64,000 bases of DNA from Actinomycetes bacterium (lineage in GTDB: Bacteria; Actinomycetota; Acidimicrobiia; Acidimicrobiales; RAAP-2): the NCBI GenBank assembly GCA_021786095.1, contig JAJYNX010000023.1, positions 1-64,000 of the forward strand. Reading direction: 5' to 3'. Shown piece by piece: positions 2,473 through 16,221 of the stretch. The position numbers were made by a program, and so were the translations under genes. Each line of letters begins with the position of its first letter. The first letter of the stretch is position 1. The notes beneath the pieces were generated by a model, which saw only the letters and a program-made list of their open reading frames with translations, made no database searches and had not been told where the DNA came from.

Positions 2473-5370
2473 TCAGCCCTTGGCCAGCGCCGCCTGGGCC
2501 AACTGCAGCTGGGCGTGCATCGCTTCGACGTCCGCCTGATACTGACCGAGGTGTCCCGCACCCAGGGCCGCCTGCGCCGCCGTCCAGTCCGCGGCCGCTC
2601 GCGCCAGGTAGGCCGCCACACTGGACGTCGTCGGGGCGGGCCCCGTACTGGATGGTGGCGGCGAGGTCGGCGAGGTCGGCGCGGTGATGTTGGCGCCCAG
2701 TGCCTTGGAGAGCGCGCCGGCGGCGGTCGGCGCGATGGCCACGTCCTGGTTGAACACGGCGATGACGTACTTCAACTGGGGCATCGGGTTCGAGGTGCTG
2801 GTCACGTACAGCGGGCGGATGTAGAGCACGCTCTGGTCCAGGGGCACCATGAGGTTGTTGCCCAGCAGAACCCCCGACCCGTGCTGGTCGAGCAGCGTGA
2901 TGGTCGAGCTGACCTTGGCGTTCTCCTGGATCTCGGAGTCGGCCTGAACCGGTCCGATCACCAACGCACTGCGCGGTGTCTCGTAGACGTTCAGCTGCCC
3001 GTAGTTCGAGGGGTTGGAGGTGGCCACCATGAAGGCCGTCAGCCCCTGGACCGTGGAGGAGTTCCCCGCCGGCACGTAGGCGATGGTCTCCAGCAACTGC
3101 TGCTGGTGCTGGCCGGGCAGCGCCCCCACCTGGAAGACGGGGCTCATGGGCGACAGCGACGAGGAGATGACGTTGCCCGCCGCGTCGGTCACCGTCGTCT
3201 GGGCCAGTGACTGGCTCGGCGTGCCCGCGCCGGTCGTGGGCGAGACCTCCCAGCGGTCCGACGCCGTGTAGAAGGCGCTGGCGTTGGTGATGTGGTAGCG
3301 ACCCAGCGTGGCCGCCTGGACCGAGTAGAGATCAATCGGGTAGCGCAGATGCGTGGCGATCGCGGGCGGCAACGAGCTCATGGGCAGGAACATGGTGGGA
3401 AAGGCCGCCCGGTAGGCCTGCAGGATCGGATCGTTCGGGTCCGCGGCGTAGAACTTGATCGACCCGGTGTACGCGTTGATCACGACCTTGACCGAGTCGC
3501 GTACGTAGTTGAAGCTGTAGGGAAGTCCCCCGAACGTCGTGCCCAGGTTGTCGGCGTTCTCGCTGTAGGGGTACTGGCTGGTGGTCGTGAAGCCGTCGAG
3601 CACGTACTGGATCTCGCCGTTGGCGATCACCGGGTAGGGCTGGGAGTTGAAGGAGAGGAACGGGGCCGCCTTCTTCGCCATGGCCACCACGTCGCGCACG
3701 AAGATCACCCGGCTCTTCGGCGTGATCTGGTTCGAGATCAGGAAGTTGAAGTCGCCCAGGCGCAGGGCGAAGGCCAGCCGGCTGAAGAAGCCGCCGACCG
3801 CCACGCCCCCGGTGCTGGCGTAGTGCGTCTCGACCGGCTGGCCGGCGTTGGCTCCCGAGTTGACCTGGTAGTCCAGTTCGGGCTGCTTGGTGTTCGCCAC
3901 GACCCAGCCGGGGTCGTTGATGCCGAAGTAGATGTCGGGCTGGGTCAGCACCGGCATCCCGTCGGACGAGACGGGCGGGACGTTGGACACCGCGAGGATG
4001 GGGTTGCCGGTGGCCGGGTCGACGGTGTTGGCGACCACCACCGCCGCCCCGATGCCGTGCGTGTACTGCAGGTGGAGATTCACCCAGCTGGGCGACGGCA
4101 GGTTCGAGGGGTTGAGCTGGCGCGCGCCGATCAGCACGGGCGTGAGCTTGCCGTTGATGTAGTAGCGGTCCACGGCGAGCGAGGAGAAGGTGTAGTAGGA
4201 GCGGATCGACTGGCGACGGATCACCGAGGCCAACGTGATGTTGTTGGCCGGGTCCCACAGGCGGATGTTGCCGAGCGTGGCCGCGTCGGCACTGATCTGC
4301 GCGTGACTCATGCTGGTCGCCCCGGCGAAGGAGTGGTAGACGACGTGGTCAAGTCCGAAGGCGGCGCGGGTCGCGACGATGTTGCGCTGGATGTAGGGCG
4401 CCTCGAGAGTCGCCTGAGCCGGCGAGACCTTGAGGGCCTGGAGCAGCGTCGGGTAGAGCACGCCGATCACCAGCGCCACGAACATCCAGAGCCCGACCGC
4501 CACTACGGGCAGCGACCATCCACGCGAGCGCACGTTCGCGAGCAGGATAACCGTGGCGGCCAGGGAGAGATAGAAGAGGATGGTCAGCGCGGGGATGCGG
4601 GCGTGCACGTCGGTGTAGGCGGCGCCCTGGACGTAGCCGTTGGTCGAGTTCACCAGCTCCCACTTGGCGATCACGTAGCCGGCCGCCTTCATCAGGGCGA
4701 TGCCCGCGCCGATCACCGAGAGATGCGCCTTGACCCGGGGTGCCACCCGCGGGGTGACCCGGCTCGCACGGATCCCCCCGTTGAGGAAGTGGAACCCCGC
4801 CGTGACGACGAGGATCACGACCAGTGAGACCAGCAGCCAGGTCACCACGAAGGACACGAAGGGCAGGGTGAAGACGTAGAAGCCGATGTTCTTGTGGAAG
4901 AGCGGATCGCTGGCGGGGAAGGACTGGCGGTGCGCGAAGAGGAGGTACGCGTTCCACTGCCCCGACGCGTTGAGCCCCGCCACGACGCCGAAGATGAAGG
5001 CGATCACGGCGTAGATGCGCGCCGCGTGGGGGCGAACCACGTTCTGGAAGCGCCGTACCACCTCGTCCTCGGGCTCGAAGGACAGCTCGCGGGCTCCGAA
5101 GCGGTCGGTGAGCAGGAGGTTGCCCCACAACAGGGCGAAGAAGACGGCGCCAAAGGTCAGGCCCAGGCCCACCTTCACCACGAACAACGTGGTGAAGACG
5201 CTGCCCAGTCCCACCGACGAGAACCACATCTGATCGGTCCACAGCAGGGCCAGGCTGCGCAACGACAGGAACGCGACGAGGACGATGACGACGACCAGAC
5301 CGACCCAGAAGCGACGCGAGAATCGGCCGATCCGTCGGGGACGCGCCGAGGCGTCGGTGGGGCTACGCAC
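2473..5370 (-). CDS. UPF0182 family membrane protein
   Basis: 965 aa with several N-terminal TM segments and long extracytoplasmic region (SHAQISADAATLGNIRLWDPANN...VRDSVKVVINAYTGSIKFYAADPNDPILQAYRAAFPTMF), characteristic of UPF0182. Confidence 0.93.
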   Translation of the reverse strand: MRSPTDASARPRRIGRFSRRFWVGLVVVIVLVAFLSLRSLALLWTDQMWFSSVGLGSVFTTLFVVKVGLGLTFGAVFFALLWGNLLLTDRFGARELSFEPEDEVVRRFQNVVRPHAARIYAVIAFIFGVVAGLNASGQWNAYLLFAHRQSFPASDPLFHKNIGFYVFTLPFVSFVVTWLLVSLVVILVVTAGFHFLNGGIRASRVTPRVAPRVKAHLSVIGAGIALMKAAGYVIAKWELVNSTNGYVQGAAYTDVHARIPALTILFYLSLAATVILLANVRSRGWSLPVVAVGLWMFVALVIGVLYPTLLQALKVSPAQATLEAPYIQRNIVATRAAFGLDHVVYHSFAGATSMSHAQISADAATLGNIRLWDPANNITLASVIRRQSIRSYYTFSSLAVDRYYINGKLTPVLIGARQLNPSNLPSPSWVNLHLQYTHGIGAAVVVANTVDPATGNPILAVSNVPPVSSDGMPVLTQPDIYFGINDPGWVVANTKQPELDYQVNSGANAGQPVETHYASTGGVAVGGFFSRLAFALRLGDFNFLISNQITPKSRVIFVRDVVAMAKKAAPFLSFNSQPYPVIANGEIQYVLDGFTTTSQYPYSENADNLGTTFGGLPYSFNYVRDSVKVVINAYTGSIKFYAADPNDPILQAYRAAFPTMFLPMSSLPPAIATHLRYPIDLYSVQAATLGRYHITNASAFYTASDRWEVSPTTGAGTPSQSLAQTTVTDAAGNVISSSLSPMSPVFQVGALPGQHQQQLLETIAYVPAGNSSTVQGLTAFMVATSNPSNYGQLNVYETPRSALVIGPVQADSEIQENAKVSSTITLLDQHGSGVLLGNNLMVPLDQSVLYIRPLYVTSTSNPMPQLKYVIAVFNQDVAIAPTAAGALSKALGANITAPTSPTSPPPSSTGPAPTTSSVAAYLARAAADWTAAQAALGAGHLGQYQADVEAMHAQLQLAQAALAKG

Positions 5371-5391: not shown

Positions 5392-7134
5392 TCACACCGG
5401 CACGACCGCACACGCGCATCCGGCGTGCAGCGGTGGATACGGCGAACCGCTCGGGAAGTTCTGGCCCGCCGGGCGCTCGCCCGCCGCGGCGTCCAGGGCG
5501 CAGGCGTCGCAGGGCGCGTCGTTGGGCGTGGCGTAGAAGTGGACCAATCGGCCACGCGCGGCGCTCACGACGCCGATGTGGAAGGCCCGGCGCGCGGCAT
5601 CGGTGCACAACCGCTCGACGCGCGCGCCGCGCCACTCGCGGTACGCGGTGTTGACCCGTTCGGCCGCGTCGCCGCTGCCGTCGGCCAGGATGCGCCGGCG
5701 CAGCGCCAAAACGATGGTCACGGCCAGGTCCGCGGCGCAGTCGGCCAGCGCGGGCTGGTTCACCGGCTGGGCCGACGTGCCCGACTCGTCGACGGCGAAC
5801 TGCACGCCGGCCGCGGCGGCGTCGGCCAGCGCGTCGTAGGCGGCGGCCGCGTAGCGCGCTCGTTGCTCGTGCTCGTCCTCGAGCTCGGTGGTGATGGCGC
5901 CGCTGACGCTTCGCAGGCGCTCGAGCATCACGTTCTGGTCGTCCTGCAGGGCCCGCTTGACCTTGCGGGTCAGCACGGCGAGCGATTCGTCCAGTGCCGC
6001 GTCGCGGCGATGGAAGAGCTCGCCGACCGGGGTGGCGGGCTTGGCCGGGGGCGCCTTGCGCGGCCCCGGGGCGCTGGCGCCGCGCTCCTCCAGGGTCGCG
6101 CGGCGCAGGCGCGCGAAGATCTCGTTGACCACGTCGGTCCCCGAGGCGTCGTCGGGCGCGACGGTGGGTGCGGGTACGGGTGTGGCGTCGGGTGCGGGTG
6201 CCGGTGCGGGAGCCACGCCCGGAGCGGGCTCGGGACCGGCTGCGGGCGCCACGGGAGCGGCGGACACCGACGCCTCCGCAGGCGTGGCCGTGGGCTCGGG
6301 GACCGGCGCGACCGGCACGTCGACGTCGGGGACCTGACGCAGCGGCGTACCCTGCAGCAACTCCTCCTCAGTCGGCTCGGGCGCGGCGGGGCGCAGCCGC
6401 AGCGCCTCGAGCGCCGCCGCCCGAGCGGCGTCGTCGGAGGCCAGCAGACCCTCCTGAACCTCGTCGATCTGGGCGCGCAGCGTCGAGAGGTACCCGGCCA
6501 GGTGGTCGCGCGCCGCGCGCAGCTGCTCGATCTGCAGGTGCAGGGCCTTTCGCTTGACCGCCAGATCGTTCAGCACCGTCTTGCGCGCCTCGTTGGCCTG
6601 CTCGACCAGGGCGCGGCCCTGCTCGCGCGCGCGCTGCACCAGCGCCTCGCCGTTGATCTTGCCCGAGTCGATCAGCCGCTCGGCGGCCAAGCGCGCGTCG
6701 TGGTCGATCTGGGCCGCCGTGTTCTCCGCCTCGCTCACCAGTGCGGCGGCGCGCTCCTGCGCCTCGATCAGGTGCGCGGCGCTGCGCTGCTGGCTCTCGG
6801 CGAAGAGCTGCGCACTGCGCGACTGGGCGTCGGCGGTGACCCGTCCCGCCTCCTCGTGGGCGGAGCGCAGGATTGCCGCGCTCTGTGTGCCCAGCGCCGT
6901 CGTGAGGGTGGCCTCGTCCAGCACCGGGTGCGCCGCGCGACGCTGGGCCTCGGCGAGCTGTTCCTGGAGCTCGCGCACGCGATGCTCGAGGTGACCCATC
7001 TCGCGCGACACCGCCTCCAGGTGCAGGCGCACCTCCTGGGGGTCCAGACCACCCTTGCGCACGGTGGTGAAGTTGGTGCGAACGACGTCGCTCGACGATT
7101 GGCGCGTCGTGGAGAGGATGCGGCGTTCGTCCAT
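5392..7134 (-). CDS. DivIVA-domain coiled-coil protein with C-terminal phage MuF-like Cys/His motif
   Basis: N-term NFTTVRKGGLDPQEVRLHLEAVSREMGHLEHRVRELQEQL resembles the DivI1A domain; C-term LVHFYATPNDAPCDACALDAAAGERPAGQNFPSGSPYPPLHAGCACAVVPV resembles MuF minor-head proteins. Start set to ATG 7134 from a -10 at 7142-7147. Confidence 0.65.
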   Translation of the reverse strand: MDERRILSTTRQSSSDVVRTNFTTVRKGGLDPQEVRLHLEAVSREMGHLEHRVRELQEQLAEAQRRAAHPVLDEATLTTALGTQSAAILRSAHEEAGRVTADAQSRSAQLFAESQQRSAAHLIEAQERAAALVSEAENTAAQIDHDARLAAERLIDSGKINGEALVQRAREQGRALVEQANEARKTVLNDLAVKRKALHLQIEQLRAARDHLAGYLSTLRAQIDEVQEGLLASDDAARAAALEALRLRPAAPEPTEEELLQGTPLRQVPDVDVPVAPVPEPTATPAEASVSAAPVAPAAGPEPAPGVAPAPAPAPDATPVPAPTVAPDDASGTDVVNEIFARLRRATLEERGASAPGPRKAPPAKPATPVGELFHRRDAALDESLAVLTRKVKRALQDDQNVMLERLRSVSGAITTELEDEHEQRARYAAAAYDALADAAAAGVQFAVDESGTSAQPVNQPALADCAADLAVTIVLALRRRILADGSGDAAERVNTAYREWRGARVERLCTDAARRAFHIGVVSAARGRLVHFYATPNDAPCDACALDAAAGERPAGQNFPSGSPYPPLHAGCACAVVPV

Positions 7135-7204
7135 TCCCACCAGACTACGGCGTGAGTCGACACGAAACGGGCTTCACGAGACCTCGGGGACCGGGCTGGG
7201 AGGC

Positions 7205-8326
7205 CTAGCGGGGAGGAGTGAGGCTCACCGGGCGCTGGCCGCCCACGCGGCGCAGCGCCGCGAGGGCCTGGCCGAGCGTCGTCACCCCGACCACGCGCAG
7301 TCCGGGGGTGGCGGCGGCGCGCGCCGTGGCCACCTCCACGCTCGGCACGATGAACAGGGTGGCCCCGGCACGCTGGACCGCCACGGTCTTCTCGGCCACG
7401 CCCCCGACGTCGCCCACCTGTCCCTGCGGGTCGATCGTGCCGGTCGCGGCCACCACCTGGTGGCCGGTGAGGGAGCCCGCGCTCAGCTCGTTGATCAGTG
7501 TCAGGGTCATCGCGAGCCCCGCCGACGGCCCCCCGATATTGGCGGTGTTGATCGCGATCGACCCCGGCAGGCGATAGTGCACCGCGTTCTCCAGCGAGAT
7601 GCCGAGCCACGAGTGATCCCGGCCTCGCACGCCCGGACAGCCCGAGGGCGTGATCGCGCTCGGGGGGGTCGCGGTGCGCACCGACAGCACCCGAGCCGGC
7701 GCGTAGGTGATGACCCCGCTGGCGCTCACGCGAGCGCGACGCACGTCCAGGCGCACCCGCGACCCCGGGGCGAGGAGGTGCACGGCGCCGATGAGCCCAC
7801 ACGCGCTGCGCACGGGGGTTCCCCCCACGCCCACCACGCGGTCCGCCACGCCCAGGCCGGCCTGGTACGCCGGCGAGGGATCCACCACCCCCGTCACGGT
7901 CGCCCCGACCGACTCCGACGGGATCGTCCAGCCGAGCGCGCGCAGCGCCGCCACCTGCGCCGCGGTCTTGGAGTCCGACATCTCGAGGTAGCCCTGGTTG
8001 ATCAGCTCGCTCGAAGGCACCCCCGGCTCCACCAACTCGCTCGCGCTGACGAACTGCACGTGGGACTCGAAGTGCATGATCAGCCACTGCCAGGCGCTCA
8101 GTGACTGCAGGTAGACGTCCGTCAGCATGATCGGATCGTGGTGCGGGTTCGTGCGCAATCCTCGAATCGTCACCAGCGAGGAGACGCGCGTCGCCTGGCC
8201 CGGAGTCAACGCGTAGTACGGGACGGTCCAGGCCCGCAGTCCCACCACCACGACCAGCACGATCGCGATCGCCGACAGCGCCCCGATTGAGCGACGGCGC
8301 CGGCGTGGTGGAATGGTGTCGTGCAC
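7205..8326 (-). CDS. PDZ domain-containing Lon-like (S16) protease, YlbL family
   Basis: N-terminal TM, PDZ segment, catalytic NIGGPSAGLAMTLTLINEL (Ser) and VGGVAEKTVAVQRAGATLFIVP (Lys). Confidence 0.92.
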   Translation of the reverse strand: MHDTIPPRRRRRSIGALSAIAIVLVVVVGLRAWTVPYYALTPGQATRVSSLVTIRGLRTNPHHDPIMLTDVYLQSLSAWQWLIMHFESHVQFVSASELVEPGVPSSELINQGYLEMSDSKTAAQVAALRALGWTIPSESVGATVTGVVDPSPAYQAGLGVADRVVGVGGTPVRSACGLIGAVHLLAPGSRVRLDVRRARVSASGVITYAPARVLSVRTATPPSAITPSGCPGVRGRDHSWLGISLENAVHYRLPGSIAINTANIGGPSAGLAMTLTLINELSAGSLTGHQVVAATGTIDPQGQVGDVGGVAEKTVAVQRAGATLFIVPSVEVATARAAATPGLRVVGVTTLGQALAALRRVGGQRPVSLTPPR

Positions 8327-8956
8327 AGTGAGTCCACGCTACCGGAGGCTCTCGGCGCGGCGTTGGTCGCGGCGGGGTCGCGTGAGGACCCGGCGCTCGA
8401 CGAGCTGGTGAACGCCGCCCTCTCCTCGCCCGACCCCCGCCACCGCGTGCTGGCCCTGCGCGCGCGGGCGCGGCGGGGGCGCTTGGGGGTCGCGCAGTGG
8501 CGCGCGGCACTGGGCGACCCCGACGCCGACGTACGCCGCGAGGGGCTCACCCTGCTCGCCCAGGATCCCCGCCCCCTGCCCTCGCTGGCCCGAGCGATCG
8601 TCGCCGCCCTGGAGGACTCCGATCCGCTCGTGGTCGACGCCGCGGCCTTCGCCGCGGGCGAGCGGGGCTGTCACGCCGCGCTCGACTCCCTGATCGTCGT
8701 GGCGCGCACCCACGACGACGCGCGCTGTCGCGAGGCGGCCATCGCCGCGCTGGGCAGTCTCGGCGACCGACGCGGCGTCGCGACGATCATCGCCGCCCTG
8801 GAGGACAAGGCGCCCGTGCGTCGACGCGCGATCGTCGCCCTGGCCAACGTCGAGGGTCCCGACGTCGACGCCGCGCTCGCGCGCGCCGCCACCGATCGCG
8901 ACTGGCAGGTGCGCGCGGCGGTCGAGCAGCTCGCGCGCGAGGACCGTCCGCAGTAG
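8321..8956 (+). CDS. HEAT-repeat domain protein
   Basis: Repeated DPDADVRREGLTLLAQDPR / DSDPLVVDAAAFAAGERG / DDARCREAAIAALGSLGDRRGVATIIAALEDKAPVRRRAIVAL units. Confidence 0.85.
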   Translation: MHSESTLPEALGAALVAAGSREDPALDELVNAALSSPDPRHRVLALRARARRGRLGVAQWRAALGDPDADVRREGLTLLAQDPRPLPSLARAIVAALEDSDPLVVDAAAFAAGERGCHAALDSLIVVARTHDDARCREAAIAALGSLGDRRGVATIIAALEDKAPVRRRAIVALANVEGPDVDAALARAATDRDWQVRAAVEQLAREDRPQ

Positions 8957-8973: not shown

Positions 8974-9975
8974 TCACCGATCCGCGTCGCGCAGCAGGCC
9001 GTGGAGCGAGGACATCTCCTCGAGGCACAGGGCCAGACCCTTGACCACGACCAGCTCGGGCTGCTCCGCGACGTGCACCTCCACCCCCGTGCTGGTGGCA
9101 ATCAGCTCGCCGAGGTCCGCCAGACGGGCGTGGCCGCCCACCAGGACCAGACCCCGCGAGCTGACGTCCTGAGACAGGTCGGGTGGCGCACCGGCCAGCG
9201 CGTCCTGGACCATCGAGACCGTGGAGTGGACGTTGTCGCGCAGGGCGTCGTTCACGAGGTCGGCCCGCACCTCGACCTCGACGATCTCGCCGCGGTCCAC
9301 CGTGCGAGCCATCACCACCTCGCTGCGGCCGCTAGTGCGCCCGATGGCCGAGGCCAGGCTGATCTTCAGCATCTCGGCCACCGACGGTGCGATCACGACG
9401 CCCAGACGGTGACGCAACGACAGGGCCACGGCCTGGTCCACGTCGGCGCCGCCGTGGCGCCGCGCGCCGCGCGTGACGATGCCCCCGAGCGAGATGAGCG
9501 TGGACTCCGACGCGCCCGCCCCCAGCACCGTCACCGCCGACCCGACGGGATCCTGCACCGGTAGGCCCAGGCCGATCGCCGCAGCGATGGGCGACTCGAT
9601 CAGCGTGACGTCGCGAGCCCCGGCCTGGATGGCCGCCTGACGCAGCGCGCGCCGCTCGATGGCGGTGGCCAGCGACGGCACGCTCATCACCGCGCGCACG
9701 CGACTGATCTTGGACGCGCCGGCGCGCTCGAACAACGCGGCGACGAGGCGGGCGGTGACGTCGAAGTCGACGGTCGCCCCCTGAGCCAGCGGATGGAAGA
9801 CCACCACGTGGCGCGAGGTGCGCGCCACGAGGTCCACCGCGCCGTAGCCCACCTCCACCACGTCGCCCGATCCGGTGTCGATGGCCACGGTGGAGGGCTC
9901 GTTGAAGACCACACCCTCGTCGGTGGCCACCCGGCAGAACGCCGTGCCGATGTCGAGCGCGACGTCCGTGGCCAT
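8974..9975 (-). CDS. MreB/Mbl-like actin-fold protein with degenerate phosphate-2 motif
   Basis: VALDIGTAFCRV, NEPSTVA, AGARDVTLIESPIAAAIGLGLPV, ISLGGIVTRGARRHGGADVDQAV and AEMLKISLASA align with MreB; DIGGGTTE is replaced by VLGAGASE. Confidence 0.82.
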   Translation of the reverse strand: MATDVALDIGTAFCRVATDEGVVFNEPSTVAIDTGSGDVVEVGYGAVDLVARTSRHVVVFHPLAQGATVDFDVTARLVAALFERAGASKISRVRAVMSVPSLATAIERRALRQAAIQAGARDVTLIESPIAAAIGLGLPVQDPVGSAVTVLGAGASESTLISLGGIVTRGARRHGGADVDQAVALSLRHRLGVVIAPSVAEMLKISLASAIGRTSGRSEVVMARTVDRGEIVEVEVRADLVNDALRDNVHSTVSMVQDALAGAPPDLSQDVSSRGLVLVGGHARLADLGELIATSTGVEVHVAEQPELVVVKGLALCLEEMSSLHGLLRDADR

Positions 9976-10031
9976 AGGTCACGATGTTAGAGCGACCAGT
10001 GCCGAGCCCCCGCGATCACTAGCCTCATCGC

Positions 10032-11129
10032 GTGGCGTGGTTCGATCAGTGGCGTTCCCGAGCGGGCCGCCGCCCCCGGCGGCCGGCCCCCGAGGCCCGG
10101 GCCTGGGTCCACCCGAGTGAGCTGCCCAGTTTCACCGCACTCCCCTCGTCAGCCCTCGAGCCGCGCCACTCGCGCCTCGCCCGACTGTTGGCGTCGTTGG
10201 GGCTGCTCGCCCTGCTCGCGGGCAGCGCAGCGCTGGCCTCGACCCACCACGCCACCCCCGCCAGCCAGAGCATGTCCACGACGGTCACGGCCCGCCTGTC
10301 GGCACTGCCGGCCTACGCGCGCGCGGCCGCGGCGCGCACCGTCGACCTGACGATCGCCATCCCCGGACACGACCTGTACGTACCCGCCATGGTCCTGTCC
10401 CCGCGCCTCGCGGTCACCACCGTCTCCATCCCCTCCGACGCGATCCTGACGGCGTCGGTGCCGGGCCACCTGAACTTCCCCGTCACGTGGGTCGGCCGAG
10501 ACGCCACCATGGGCTTCACGGTCGTACGCCTGGGCCTTCGCATGGATCCTCTGGTCTTCGCCCCGCTGCCCGCGAGCACGTCGATCATGGCGATCGCGCC
10601 CGTCGAGCGCACCTCGATCAGCCGTCCGCGCTTCGCCTGGGCCAACACGACCCTCGGCGACCCGGTGCTACGCGCCAACGGGGTCGTGAGCTACCTCGCC
10701 ACGCCGCCGCGCCCCAACCTCCACGGGGTGGCCGACGCGATCGGCGTCGACGCCCACGGCCACGTCGTCGCCGTCCTCTCCGCCGGTGGCGAGTGGTACT
10801 CGGCCCAGTTCGTGGCCCGGGTGGCCACCGTGCTGGCCGACGGCCAGGGCTGTCACGCCAGCCTCGACCTCGTCGGCGAGACGGCCCAGGGCGGGGGGGC
10901 CCAGATCACGGCGGTCGACCCCGAGGGCGTCGCGGTGCACCACCTGCGCCGCGGCGACATCATCCTGACGCTCAATCACCACCCCATCGACTCGTGGGAC
11001 GCCCTGCTCACCGTCCTCTACCTCACTCCGGCCCACGACCCCGCGCGAGTGACCTTCCTGCGCGGCACCGTGACCCGTCACACGACCATCGTCCTGGGCT
11101 GCGCGCTCTCCGCGCTCTGGCGCCCCTAG
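10032..11129 (+). CDS. HtrA-like PDZ protein, apparently lacking the catalytic triad
   Basis: N-terminal TM, trypsin-like beta-barrel segments, C-terminal PDZ-like GAQITAVDPEGVAVHHLRRGDIILTLNHHPIDSWDALLTVLY; no H/D/GNSGGPL at expected places. Confidence 0.65.
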   Translation: MAWFDQWRSRAGRRPRRPAPEARAWVHPSELPSFTALPSSALEPRHSRLARLLASLGLLALLAGSAALASTHHATPASQSMSTTVTARLSALPAYARAAAARTVDLTIAIPGHDLYVPAMVLSPRLAVTTVSIPSDAILTASVPGHLNFPVTWVGRDATMGFTVVRLGLRMDPLVFAPLPASTSIMAIAPVERTSISRPRFAWANTTLGDPVLRANGVVSYLATPPRPNLHGVADAIGVDAHGHVVAVLSAGGEWYSAQFVARVATVLADGQGCHASLDLVGETAQGGGAQITAVDPEGVAVHHLRRGDIILTLNHHPIDSWDALLTVLYLTPAHDPARVTFLRGTVTRHTTIVLGCALSALWRP

Positions 11130-11202
11130 ACGAACCCCGATCGGCACGGTCCACGGGGACTGGCCGACATCCCCGGCGCGGCCCACCCTCTATGTTGTGT
11201 TC

Positions 11203-12342
11203 GTGAGCGATAATCCCTTCGGCCCCCTCTTCGGGGACCTCTTCAACGTCCTGGGCCAGCAGGGACCCCACGCCTGGTTCGACACCGCCACCCAGCTCGC
11301 ACTGTCGGTCGCGCGCGGCACCGACGGTGACCCGAACCCCGATCCGCGCGAACGTCAGCGTCTCGAGGAGCTGACTCCCCTCGTCGCCCGCCACGTCGAC
11401 GCGCTGTTCGGCGTCGCCCGCGAGCCCGCCCTCACGGCAGTGAATCGGTCGGGTCTCACCGTGGCGGCCCTGGCCCAGTGGCGACCACTGATCGAGCCGA
11501 GCCTGCGCCCGGCCACGGCGTCCACCACCATCGTCGAGACCGACACCGGCACCGGCACCGAGACCAACCCCCTGATGGAACAGCTGTTGCACACCCTGGG
11601 ACCGCTGATGACCGGTTTCCAGCTGGGCTCCGTGGCCGGCCACTTCTCGGAGCGGGCGTGGTCCCTGGCGGCGCTGCCGCTGCCGCGACTGACACCGGAG
11701 CAACTGATCGTCGTGAACAACGTGAGCGCCTTCGCCGAGCAGTGGTCCCTGGAGCGAGACGAGGTCTACGTGTTCGCCGTCGCCCAGGAACTCGTCGCCT
11801 CGCTGGTTCTCACCCAGCCGGGCACCGGCGACGCGCTACGCGCCCTGCTCCTGGACGCCGTGCGCGAGGCCAGCGCGATCCAGCAGGACCTGATGAGCCG
11901 GCTGCAGTCCATGATGCGACCCGACGACCTCGCCTCGCTGCTGGGGGATCCGTCCTCCCTGCTCGAGGGCATCGCCCTGCCCGAGGAGAGCGAGGCCACC
12001 CGCGCCATCAACGCCGCGGCGGCGGCCCTGATGGCCTTCTTCGACGCCGCCGCCCACGACGTCACGCGCACCCTCCTGGGACCGCGCCCCCAGCTGGTCG
12101 AGGCGTACCGCCGCCACCGGCGCAGCGACGCGCGCGGCGAGGACGCCGCGGCCGCCCTCTTCGGCATCGCCACCCAGGGACCCCACCACGACGCCGCTCA
12201 ACGATTCGTGGAGACGCTGACCGCGGAGCACTCGCTTCGCGTCTTCGACGCCTTGCTGCGGGTGGACGGCCTGCCGTCCGCGTCCGAACTCGAGGACCCG
12301 GCCGCGTGGTACGAGCGGGTCACCAACTCGCCGCTGGCCTAG
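11203..12342 (+). CDS. Zincin_2/DUF2342-like protein with degenerate HEXXH
   Basis: N-term DNPFGPLFGDLFNVLGQQGPHAWFDTATQLALSVA is typical of this actinobacterial family; helix at the expected position reads VFAVAQELVAS instead of HEXXH. Start set to GTG 11203 by a -10 at 11191-11196. Confidence 0.65.
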   Translation: MSDNPFGPLFGDLFNVLGQQGPHAWFDTATQLALSVARGTDGDPNPDPRERQRLEELTPLVARHVDALFGVAREPALTAVNRSGLTVAALAQWRPLIEPSLRPATASTTIVETDTGTGTETNPLMEQLLHTLGPLMTGFQLGSVAGHFSERAWSLAALPLPRLTPEQLIVVNNVSAFAEQWSLERDEVYVFAVAQELVASLVLTQPGTGDALRALLLDAVREASAIQQDLMSRLQSMMRPDDLASLLGDPSSLLEGIALPEESEATRAINAAAAALMAFFDAAAHDVTRTLLGPRPQLVEAYRRHRRSDARGEDAAAALFGIATQGPHHDAAQRFVETLTAEHSLRVFDALLRVDGLPSASELEDPAAWYERVTNSPLA

Positions 12343-13031: not shown

Positions 13032-13889
13032 GTGTTCGAGTGCGTCGTCAACCTGGCTGAGGGCCGCGACGTCGCGCGCCTCGACGACCTGGCCCACGTG
13101 GCCGGCCCCTGCCTGCGCGATCGCCACCACGATCCCGACCACCACCGATCCGTCTTCACTCTGATCGACGAGCCCGCCCCACTGCTCGAGGCGGTGATCG
13201 CCCTCGCCACGCGGGCCTACCGCCTCCTCGACCTGCGCCCCCACGTCGGCGTTCACCCGCGGATCGGGGTGGTGGACGTCGTGCCCTTCGTCGCCCTGGA
13301 CCCGGCGCGCGCCGACGAGGCCTGCGCGTTACGTGACGCGCTGGGGCGCTGGCTCGCGGACGCCTGGCTCGTCCCCGTCCACTTCTACGGACCACGACCC
13401 GACGGCACGAGCCGCACGCTGCCCGAGGTGCGTCGCGCCGTGCGAGCGGGACTGGCTCCGGACCTCGGGCCCGCACGGGCCCACGCGTCGCGCGGGGCGT
13501 CGGCCGTCGGGTGCCGGTCCATCCTGGTGGCCTGGAACCTCTGGCTCGCCGACACACCGGTGGAACTCGCGCGGTCCATCGCCACGCAACTGCGCCGACC
13601 GGGTCTGCGCACACTGGCCTTCGCGATCGGCCGCGACGCGCAGGTGAGCTGCAATGTCGTCGACGTCGATGCGATTCGCCTCAGCGAGGTCTACGACCAA
13701 GTCGACGCCCTGGCACCGAAGGGCGTCGACCACGCGGAACTGGTCGGCCTGGCGCCGCGCGCGATGCTCGATCGCGAGGACCCGGCACGCTGGGCGCAAC
13801 TGGCCCTCCGCGAGGACGCCACGATCGAGGCGCGCCTGGGCGCGTCAGCCCGCTTGGGAGCGACGCTCCAGGGCCCGCACCCGGCGTAG
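13032..13889 (+). CDS. Glutamate formimidoyltransferase (FtcD N-domain-like)
   Basis: FECVVNLAEGRD, DRHHDPDHHRSVFTL, HVGVHPRIGVVDVVPF, CNVVD; lacks a cyclodeaminase domain. Confidence 0.85.
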   Translation: MFECVVNLAEGRDVARLDDLAHVAGPCLRDRHHDPDHHRSVFTLIDEPAPLLEAVIALATRAYRLLDLRPHVGVHPRIGVVDVVPFVALDPARADEACALRDALGRWLADAWLVPVHFYGPRPDGTSRTLPEVRRAVRAGLAPDLGPARAHASRGASAVGCRSILVAWNLWLADTPVELARSIATQLRRPGLRTLAFAIGRDAQVSCNVVDVDAIRLSEVYDQVDALAPKGVDHAELVGLAPRAMLDREDPARWAQLALREDATIEARLGASARLGATLQGPHPA

Positions 13890-14229: not shown

Positions 14230-16221
14230 CTACCCAGCCCGATGGTGGCGCACGAAGTCGTCGAGCACGTAGCGCCCCAGCTCGTCGACCGAGGTGTAGA
14301 AGGTGCGCCCGCCGTTGACGCGCGCGATCTGCTCGACGAAGGGGAACTGCGTGCGCTCGGTGTCCAGCGCGAAGACGTTGATCACGATCCCCGCGCGCGT
14401 GCAGCGCACCACCTCGGCCATCGTGCGCTCCAGGGTCTCGCGCACCGGGGGCCACGAGAAGAAGGGCTGGCCGTCGTCTTGGAGGTGGGCGGTCGGCTCG
14501 CCGTCGGTGACCACCACGATCTGGCGCTCCCCGCGTTCGCCGCGCAGCAGGTGGCGCCCCAGGGCGAGCGCGTGCTGGAGGTTGGTCCCGTAGTTGTAGT
14601 CGATCGTCAGGGCGGGGATGTCCTCGATGCGCAGCTCCTGGGCCAGCTCGCCGAAGCCGACCACGGCGGCCAGGTCGCGCGGGAACGTCGAGCGGATCAG
14701 CTGGGTCAACGCCAGCACCATCTTCTTGGCCGGTACCAGATTGCCCCGCATCGCCATCGACAGCGACAGGTCGATGGCGAAGACGGTCGCCGCGCGACGC
14801 GTCGCCTCGTACTCCTCCACCTCGAAGTCGTCGGGGTGCAGGCGCACCGGCGTGCCCGGCCCCTGACGCAGGACCGCGTTACGCAGAGTGCGCGGCAGGT
14901 TGAGCGAGAAGGCCTCGCCCGGCTCCCAGGGCTTGGAGGTCTCCTCACGGTCGCCCCCACCAGCCAGGGACGCCTCACGGTGCCCGCCGAGGACCGGCGA
15001 GCGGCGCAGCTGGCGGAAGAGGTCGGTGAGCGCCTGGCGACCGATCTGGCGCACGCCGCGGGGGGTGAGGGTGGTACGCGACCCCTCGCGATCGACGAAC
15101 CCCCGATCACGCAGGTCGCGCAACGCCCGCTGCAGACGCGCCACGTGAGCCGCGGCGTCGTCACCCAGGTGGCGGCGCACGGCGTCGACGTCGACCTCGG
15201 GGAGCCCCTGGGCCGGGTGGGCCCGGGTCACGAACTCCTCGAGCGCGCGCAGCTCGCCCAGCTCCTGGGCTCGCGACGTCGCCTCGGTGAAGGAGGTCGG
15301 CTCGGTGCCGCGCAGGCGAGCCGCGCGCTGCCAGTCCAGGTCGGACGCCGCCTGGCGGAGGTTCGCCATCAGTCGGTGCATCGAGAAGTTGAGCTCCATG
15401 TTGGCCATCATCGACTCGAAGAGCGAGCGCAGCTGACCCTGCTGCTCCCCCGACAGCGAGTTGAACATGGCCTCGGCGGCGGCGGCGCGCTCGGCCAGCG
15501 CGCGCACCACGTCCTCCAGCGACGTCGCCCCGGGGAAGAAGTCGCCGTAGCGCTCCATGAACTCCTCGAAGGACGGCGACAGTGCCTGGCCCGCACGATC
15601 CTGCTCGATCATCGTCGACAGGGCGTCCATCATCTCACGCATCCGGGCCAGCGCTGCCGGGTCGGGACTCGCGAGCGCGGACGAGGCCTGCTCGAAGTAG
15701 GTGTCCAGCACGTCGCGCGAGAGCTGATCCATCAGCTCCTCGTACTGCTCACGGGCCTCGGAGGAGACGAACTCGTAGGACTGGTACTGCGTCAGGCGCT
15801 CGCTCAGCGACGGGCTCATCAGTTCGCGCTGGAGCCGGCGCTGGGCCACCAGGTCGCCGGTCACGGCGGCGCGGCGCTCGTCGCCCGAGGCCTCGGCCTG
15901 CGTAGCCAGCTCGTCGAGCTCGGCGTCCTCGCGCGCCTCGATCTGGTCGAGCCACTCGCGGTAGCGCTGGAGCTCGCCGTCGGGGTTCGCCCGCGACTCG
16001 AGGTCGCGGCGGCGACGGCGCACGCGCTCCAGCAGGTCCCGCAGCCCCTCGACGCGGCGCCCGTCGGGGGTCGTGAAGCCCTCGCTCAGCACCCGGTCCA
16101 GCGCGCCGTCCAGGTCCCCGCTCTCTAGCAGGTCCTCGGACACCGCGCGCAGCAGCTCGTCGGCCTCCAGCTCGTCGGTCTCATCCTCGCGGCGGCGACG
16201 AAAGTCGTAGCGAGCGCTCAC
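14230..16221 (-). CDS. VWA domain-containing protein
   Basis: MIDAS-type VFAIDLSLSMAMRG and TDGEPTAHL; GTG start overlaps the MoxR stop by 4 nt. The longer ORF is an out-of-frame extension. Confidence 0.85.
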   Translation of the reverse strand: MSARYDFRRRREDETDELEADELLRAVSEDLLESGDLDGALDRVLSEGFTTPDGRRVEGLRDLLERVRRRRRDLESRANPDGELQRYREWLDQIEAREDAELDELATQAEASGDERRAAVTGDLVAQRRLQRELMSPSLSERLTQYQSYEFVSSEAREQYEELMDQLSRDVLDTYFEQASSALASPDPAALARMREMMDALSTMIEQDRAGQALSPSFEEFMERYGDFFPGATSLEDVVRALAERAAAAEAMFNSLSGEQQGQLRSLFESMMANMELNFSMHRLMANLRQAASDLDWQRAARLRGTEPTSFTEATSRAQELGELRALEEFVTRAHPAQGLPEVDVDAVRRHLGDDAAAHVARLQRALRDLRDRGFVDREGSRTTLTPRGVRQIGRQALTDLFRQLRRSPVLGGHREASLAGGGDREETSKPWEPGEAFSLNLPRTLRNAVLRQGPGTPVRLHPDDFEVEEYEATRRAATVFAIDLSLSMAMRGNLVPAKKMVLALTQLIRSTFPRDLAAVVGFGELAQELRIEDIPALTIDYNYGTNLQHALALGRHLLRGERGERQIVVVTDGEPTAHLQDDGQPFFSWPPVRETLERTMAEVVRCTRAGIVINVFALDTERTQFPFVEQIARVNGGRTFYTSVDELGRYVLDDFVRHHRAG

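Follow-up and report, generated by a model that had tools for sequence, protein, structure and literature searches.

A second MreB with a degenerate nucleotide pocket beside HtrA-like and zincin proteins that lack catalytic motifs in an actinobacterial locus

In actinobacteria, genes for UPF0182, PDZ-Lon (YlbL) and TIGR03624 proteins form a neighbourhood that we take to be of the Rv3193c-Rv3195 type. Streptomyces Mbl, an MreB-like protein, reportedly serves spore wall synthesis (Heichlinger 2011, cited in PMC4255298). Two described proteins have departed from the catalytic motifs of their families: Spiroplasma MreB3 (SpeMreB3), a natural MreB without catalytic-motif residues that is kept beside active MreBs (PMC9597168), and MamO, a non-catalytic HtrA that binds metal and activates its partner protease MamE; in magnetotactic bacteria, pseudoproteases evolved independently in three taxa (PMC4794232). 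Here we analyse a 64,000-nt stretch (the window) of contig JAJYNX010000023.1 (C14 in our set) of an Acidimicrobiales metagenome bin (GCA_021786095.1; 2.1 Mb, 117 contigs). An initial annotation, made from the letters alone, had marked three consecutive genes as degenerate MreB, HtrA and zincin; their open reading frames and motif changes are present as described (Table 1). On balance, we lean towards all three being working proteins of a conserved actinobacterial envelope locus that lack catalysis or retain it only weakly. Our overall view is that the change in the genome's second MreB, hereafter MreB2, is the surprising part of a real, selected non-catalytic set in an old envelope locus.

As in the Rv3193c-Rv3195 type, UPF0182, PDZ-Lon and zincin_2 genes are adjacent in the window. 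The proposal of an enlarged form of that neighbourhood agrees with our comparison: genomes G083 and G122 (loci L129, L130) carry a shorter form without MreB2, in which the zincin also lacks HEXXH (REAAH) and no MreB was found beside it, whereas Acidimicrobiales adds MreB2, a HEAT-repeat protein, an HtrA-like protein and a DivIVA-like protein with a phage Mu gpF-like domain (DivIVA-MuF). Streptomyces Mbl and MreB2 are alike in being additional MreB-like proteins in genomes that also have a normal MreB. In G083 (a 9.2-Mb genome), the second MreB (locus L214, G083:C1:2896800-2898800) lies away from the zincin locus and reads VCGAAATQ at phosphate-2; it is possibly Streptomyces Mbl itself, and, on a very long branch, it may or may not be an ortholog of MreB2. 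MreB2 also resembles SpeMreB3 in lacking catalytic-motif residues, with different substitutions: SpeMreB3 has E->D, T->K and E/D->S, whereas in MreB2 the two Glu remain and the Thr and phosphate-2 Asp are gone. Unlike Spiroplasma, the hosts of MreB2 are walled bacteria. The HtrA-like protein shares with MamO its family and a degenerate active site, MamO's function being non-catalytic; unlike MamO, it bears a cytosolic WVHPSELP tail, and metal binding and MamE-type activation are features of MamO.

MreB2 matched MreB_Mbl (PF06723) with 252 bits (cut-off 27) over residues 3-324 and profile positions 2-325 of 327, and stayed under the NCBIfam cut-offs of TIGR00904 (225 against 365.75) and NF010539 (258.5 against 293). 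Where normal MreBs carry D[IV]GGG[TS][TS]E, it reads VLGAGASE. The phosphate-2 aspartate (Asp150) was found in none of 80 distinct MreB2 sequences of the clade and in 52 of 53 others; Thr155 was likewise absent from all 80. Both glutamates of the E...T-x-[D/E] motif (E127, E157) are kept and its threonine is lost; further changes affect a phosphate-2 glycine, GER in GERTAE and the GGGG of the adenosine motif. The degeneracy expected from the replacement of DIGGGTTE by VLGAGASE is thus confirmed at phosphate-2, but the motif loss is partial, with DIGT, E127 and E157 remaining.

To place MreB2, we searched 61 genomes and added 80 loci from public genomes. Copies like MreB2 and like the normal MreB (MreB1) occur throughout the order. 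Identity to the MreB2 of the window was 55-79% within the genus, 37-42% in other families and about 34% for canonical MreB. The same-locus MreB2 of 24 other families keeps D[IV]GGG[TS][TS]E, DLGTANT and GGGG, and loss of the ATPase residues is confined to this clade and a second case in G140. Outside the class, MreB2 stands beside zincin, PDZ-Lon and UPF0182 in members of families f30, f35, f36, f39, f42 and others. Degenerate and intact MreB2 fell on one side of a branch separating them from the MreB1 set (support 100), and a constraint that kept the degenerate sequences together with Acidimicrobiia MreB2 raised the likelihood above that of the free search, this grouping not being rejected; these were quick trees with two long rows (L098, L214) left out, and the placement also rests on synteny. 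In the first trees the clade had joined those two rows, which we judged a long-branch artefact, and the trees were redone without them. Judged by these comparisons, MreB2 is a distinct MreB branch that in many Actinomycetota adjoins zincin, PDZ-Lon (YlbL) and UPF0182.

The G140 case (locus L098, G140:C1:1957000-1976000, 14491-15492) belongs to another family of the order; this very degenerate MreB2 reads VVGEAYTE at phosphate-2 and has no catalytic Glu. A degenerate zincin lies nearby, and the branch is very long; its MreB2 loss may or may not be independent. Two MreB2 proteins from outside the class (L119 of G077 and L124 of G099) keep D-x-GGG and have lost the catalytic Glu.

The window genome also encodes a normal MreB1 beside MreC and a penicillin-binding transpeptidase. 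MreB2 is not encoded with MreC and penicillin-binding protein 2 (PBP2) and sits in the UPF0182/zincin locus; since a normal MreB-MreC-PBP2 cluster is present in the same genome, MreB2 is an addition. Across the clade it evolves faster than MreB1, with 54% against 84-86% identity between the window genome and G016 and G013.

The HtrA-like protein gave weak PDZ matches in profile searches and none to trypsin models or Trypsin_2; for TIGR02037 it scored 15.6 (cut-off 416.2). Its AlphaFold2 (AF2) model, with a predicted local distance difference test score (pLDDT) of 82, has a membrane helix, a DegP-type barrel and a PDZ domain, and Foldseek matched it to DegP, DegQ, DegS and MucD (best E 4.5e-16, DegP). 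The suggestion of an HtrA scaffold that has lost its triad is therefore upheld, with S132, G161 and A234 at the triad columns of a predicted DegP/DegS-type fold. The single predicted membrane helix fits an envelope role. A full triad was found in none of 14 aligned clade proteins; it is kept in L127 and L128, which are in the class outside the order, and in five order members (L057, L058, L064, L067, L069), and many other order members have lost it. Relatives of the WVHPSELP tail in other families read W[RV]HPSE or HPAE, and the DNA pattern for W-x-H-P-[ST]-E has a single match in the genome. As the tail is invariant and the pattern unique, a docking role for it can reasonably be inferred. Two cysteines, Cys274 and Cys357 (window 10851-11105), are also invariant in 40 clade proteins and may form a disulfide outside the cytosol.

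The zincin scored 100.3 bits against Zincin_2 (PF10103; cut-off 25) and stayed below the TIGR03624 cut-off (74.8 against 136.05). Its UPF0182 and PDZ-Lon neighbours are present at the locus. HEXXH is lost in 84 distinct clade zincins; the zincin is single copy, and no other zincin_2 with an intact HEXXH was found in the window genome. Across the phylum the motif varies: one family has HEVTH, G083 and G122 have REAAH, and many others are degenerate. The REAAH proteins are high-scoring family members, and because no protein scored higher against the Pfam model than that of G083, loss of HEXXH is common in the zincin family.

Selection on the genes was estimated pairwise with the simple Nei-Gojobori method, as the ratio of non-synonymous to synonymous substitution (dN/dS) of the window against L134, its nearest relative. 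The values were 0.023 for MreB2, 0.115 for the HtrA-like protein and 0.119 for the zincin. UPF0182 gave 0.061 and PDZ-Lon 0.129, so that MreB2 was the most constrained gene of the locus tested on this pair. Low dN/dS and losses fixed across the clade speak for retained pseudoenzymes and not decaying genes, as had been supposed. Because catalytic residues are lost and the genes are kept by selection, the retired enzymes of this clade probably act as envelope scaffolds or sensors rather than as catalysts.

Published mutants indicate what the MreB2 changes may mean. The E...T-x-[D/E] motif of MreB is required for release of inorganic phosphate, its Thr positioning the attacking water, and a T->A change slows this release at least 5.6-fold while filaments still assemble (PMC9597168). 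Escherichia coli MreB-D165A/E/V is non-functional, and the equivalent Bacillus subtilis D158A forms less dynamic filaments (PMC3599482). From these Thr and Asp mutants we infer that MreB2 is hydrolysis-deficient and forms static assemblies. MreB2 would thus hydrolyse ATP poorly or not at all and, alongside the ordinary MreB1 elongasome, assemble into static filaments or caps at the inner face of the membrane. The HtrA-like protein would cross the membrane once, its inactive barrel and PDZ domain binding proteins or peptide ends outside the cytosol, while the invariant WVHPSELP tail could dock a partner in the cytosol, perhaps MreB2 or some other product of the locus. A cytosolic enzyme turned binding protein is what the zincin would be. 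The neighbouring PDZ-Lon, which the initial annotation had called intact, is apparently so by its motifs, the Ser-Lys motifs GGPSAGL and GGVAEK being readable in its sequence; a MamO-like arrangement, with a pseudoprotease activating a real protease, is therefore possible. Together with PDZ-Lon and DivIVA-MuF, the set would couple the sensing or processing of the envelope to wall growth at local sites. A narrower proposal strikes us as speculative and rather improbable: MreB2 would by nature be unable to hydrolyse ATP, perhaps even free of nucleotide, and act as a permanent scaffold at the membrane, docked to the cytosolic WVHPSELP tail of a transmembrane HtrA pseudoprotease that reads the outer side of the envelope, the two forming a sensor linked to the cytoskeleton.

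What MreB does is generally linked to its binding and hydrolysis of ATP. An MreB that has the counterpart of the non-functional E. coli D165V change throughout a clade, and is still the most constrained in its locus, would show in nature which roles of MreB depend on ATP turnover. The locus also places UPF0182, YlbL-type PDZ-Lon and zincin, three conserved actinobacterial families of which little is understood, in the context of cell-shape control.

Several results weigh against a selected non-catalytic set. Among universally conserved positions, those that MreB2 has lost show no significant enrichment in the nucleotide motifs (7 of 31 within them, 9 of 55 elsewhere; Fisher p = 0.57), so the pattern also fits general fast evolution, and we do not claim a targeted loss of the pocket. 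With phosphate-1 and both glutamates remaining, nucleotide binding and slow hydrolysis are possible. MreB2 may accordingly still bind ATP, hydrolyse it slowly and form filaments, its phosphate-2 loop being merely unusual, as in Spiroplasma MreB3, and only the two peptidases being pseudoenzymes. The retention of DIGT, E127 and E157 favours this, as does SpeMreB3 itself, which, although it lacks T-x-[D/E], assembles into filaments when it binds nucleotide and releases phosphate slowly (PMC9597168). We nevertheless hold it to be a tentative alternative, given the alterations at Asp150, Thr155, the phosphate-2 Gly, GER and the adenosine GGGG and the failure of E. coli D165V to function (PMC3599482).

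In addition, of 76 clade loci with MreB2 and zincin, 30 have no HtrA-like gene. No full-length HtrA was found elsewhere in seven genomes without a locus copy, which speaks against its relocation there, and the protein is therefore dispensable. Nor was coupled loss of the HtrA triad and the zincin motif seen in the joint counts (14 with both lost, 5 and 3 mixed, 1 with both intact). The losses also differ in range: that of the zincin is phylum-wide, that of the HtrA triad variable within the order, and that of MreB2 limited to the clade and G140. A single co-evolved pseudoenzyme set is not supported, the losses being of different age and range. As the losses are uncoupled and HtrA is dispensable, the three proteins need not form one complex. 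Catalysis could then have been lost separately by drift, in neighbours held together only through an old locus and with no joint function; the different phylogenetic depths, the absence of covariation between the HtrA triad and the zincin motif and the repeated loss of HtrA within the clade (a minimum of 4 presence/absence changes) favour such drift. We regard it as unlikely in view of the order-wide gene order, the MreB2-zincin neighbourhood in many families of the phylum and purifying selection on all three genes. Pseudogene decay or a sequencing or assembly artefact might be suspected where all clade genomes compared are metagenome bins, and is scarcely credible: MreB2 frames of at least 330 residues are open and full-length in 34 of 36 clade genomes, recurrence in 80 distinct MreB2, 84 zincins and 14 HtrA proteins excludes sequencing error or chance, and dN/dS of 0.02-0.12 with this conservation rules out decay.

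Table 1. Positions of genes, motifs and domains of the MreB2 locus in the window
Feature	Position	Strand	Basis or remark
UPF0182 membrane protein	2473..5370	-	PF03699, 781.7 bits
DivIVA-like protein, C-terminal MuF-like domain	5392..7140	-	PF05103; PF04233 in orthologs; phage head morphogenesis fold match
PDZ-Lon (YlbL/SepM-like) protease	7205..8326	-	PF05362, PDZ
HEAT-repeat protein	8321..8956	+	PF13646, 67.8 bits; order-wide conservation
MreB2, second MreB of the genome, degenerate nucleotide pocket, 333 aa	8974..9975	-	MreB_Mbl 252 bits; order-wide orthologs; dN/dS 0.023
MreB2 altered adenosine motif VGGHAR, residues 279-284	9124..9141	-	VGGGGM or similar in others
MreB2 degenerate phosphate-2 loop VLGAGASE, residues 150-157	9505..9528	-	Asp->Val, GGG->GAG, Thr->Ala
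MreB2 catalytic Glu127 (CcMreB E140 equivalent), kept	9595..9597	-	conserved in clade and MreB1
MreB2 phosphate-1 DIGT, residues 8-11, kept	9943..9954	-	D[IVL]GT in 79/79 readable clade sequences
Divergent intergenic space between MreB2 and HtrA-like genes, 56 bases	9976..10031	.	open reading frame coordinates
HtrA-like putative pseudoprotease: cytosolic tail, one membrane helix, trypsin-like barrel, PDZ; 365 aa	10032..11129	+	AF2 and Foldseek
Conserved cytosolic motif WVHPSELP, residues 25-32	10104..10127	+	W25, H27-P32 invariant in 40 clade proteins
Predicted membrane helix, residues 48-69	10173..10238	+	AF2 helix and hydrophobic sequence
Catalytic His position, Ser132	10425..10427	+	alignment to intact L064
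Catalytic Asp position, Gly161	10512..10514	+	alignment to intact order members
Catalytic Ser position, Ala234	10731..10733	+	approximate, local alignment gapped
PDZ domain, residues 288-353	10893..11090	+	PDZ_2 E 1.3e-5, 25.8 bits, just below cut-off 27
Zincin_2 / TIGR03624-like protein without HEXXH, 381 aa	11197..12342	+	PF10103 100 bits
QELVA in place of HEXXH, residues 197-201	11785..11799	+	motif alignment
Formiminotransferase-domain protein	13032..13889	+	3' of zincin

The genes follow in the order of Table 1, with a WhiB-like gene on the minus strand after the formiminotransferase-domain gene, which lies downstream of the zincin in nearly all clade loci. The HEAT gene is divergent to PDZ-Lon and conserved in the order; it was undetected in a few clade loci, e.g., L202 and L203. 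The C-terminal part of the DivIVA-like protein (5392-6099) contains a domain like the head morphogenesis protein gpF of phage Mu; its motif CDAC...PPLHAGCAC is kept in most Acidimicrobiia orthologs. PF04233 was matched in orthologs (E 1.8e-4 in L098, 6.3e-4 in L056), and an AF2 model of this part (pLDDT 87) resembled phage head morphogenesis proteins, the best named matches having E of about 6e-5. A search of the available literature for Acidimicrobiia MreB, or for DivIVA with Mu F, turned up nothing useful. Matching public records are Acidimicrobiaceae or Acidimicrobiales metagenome bins, and the names of many of them point to studies of peat and permafrost.

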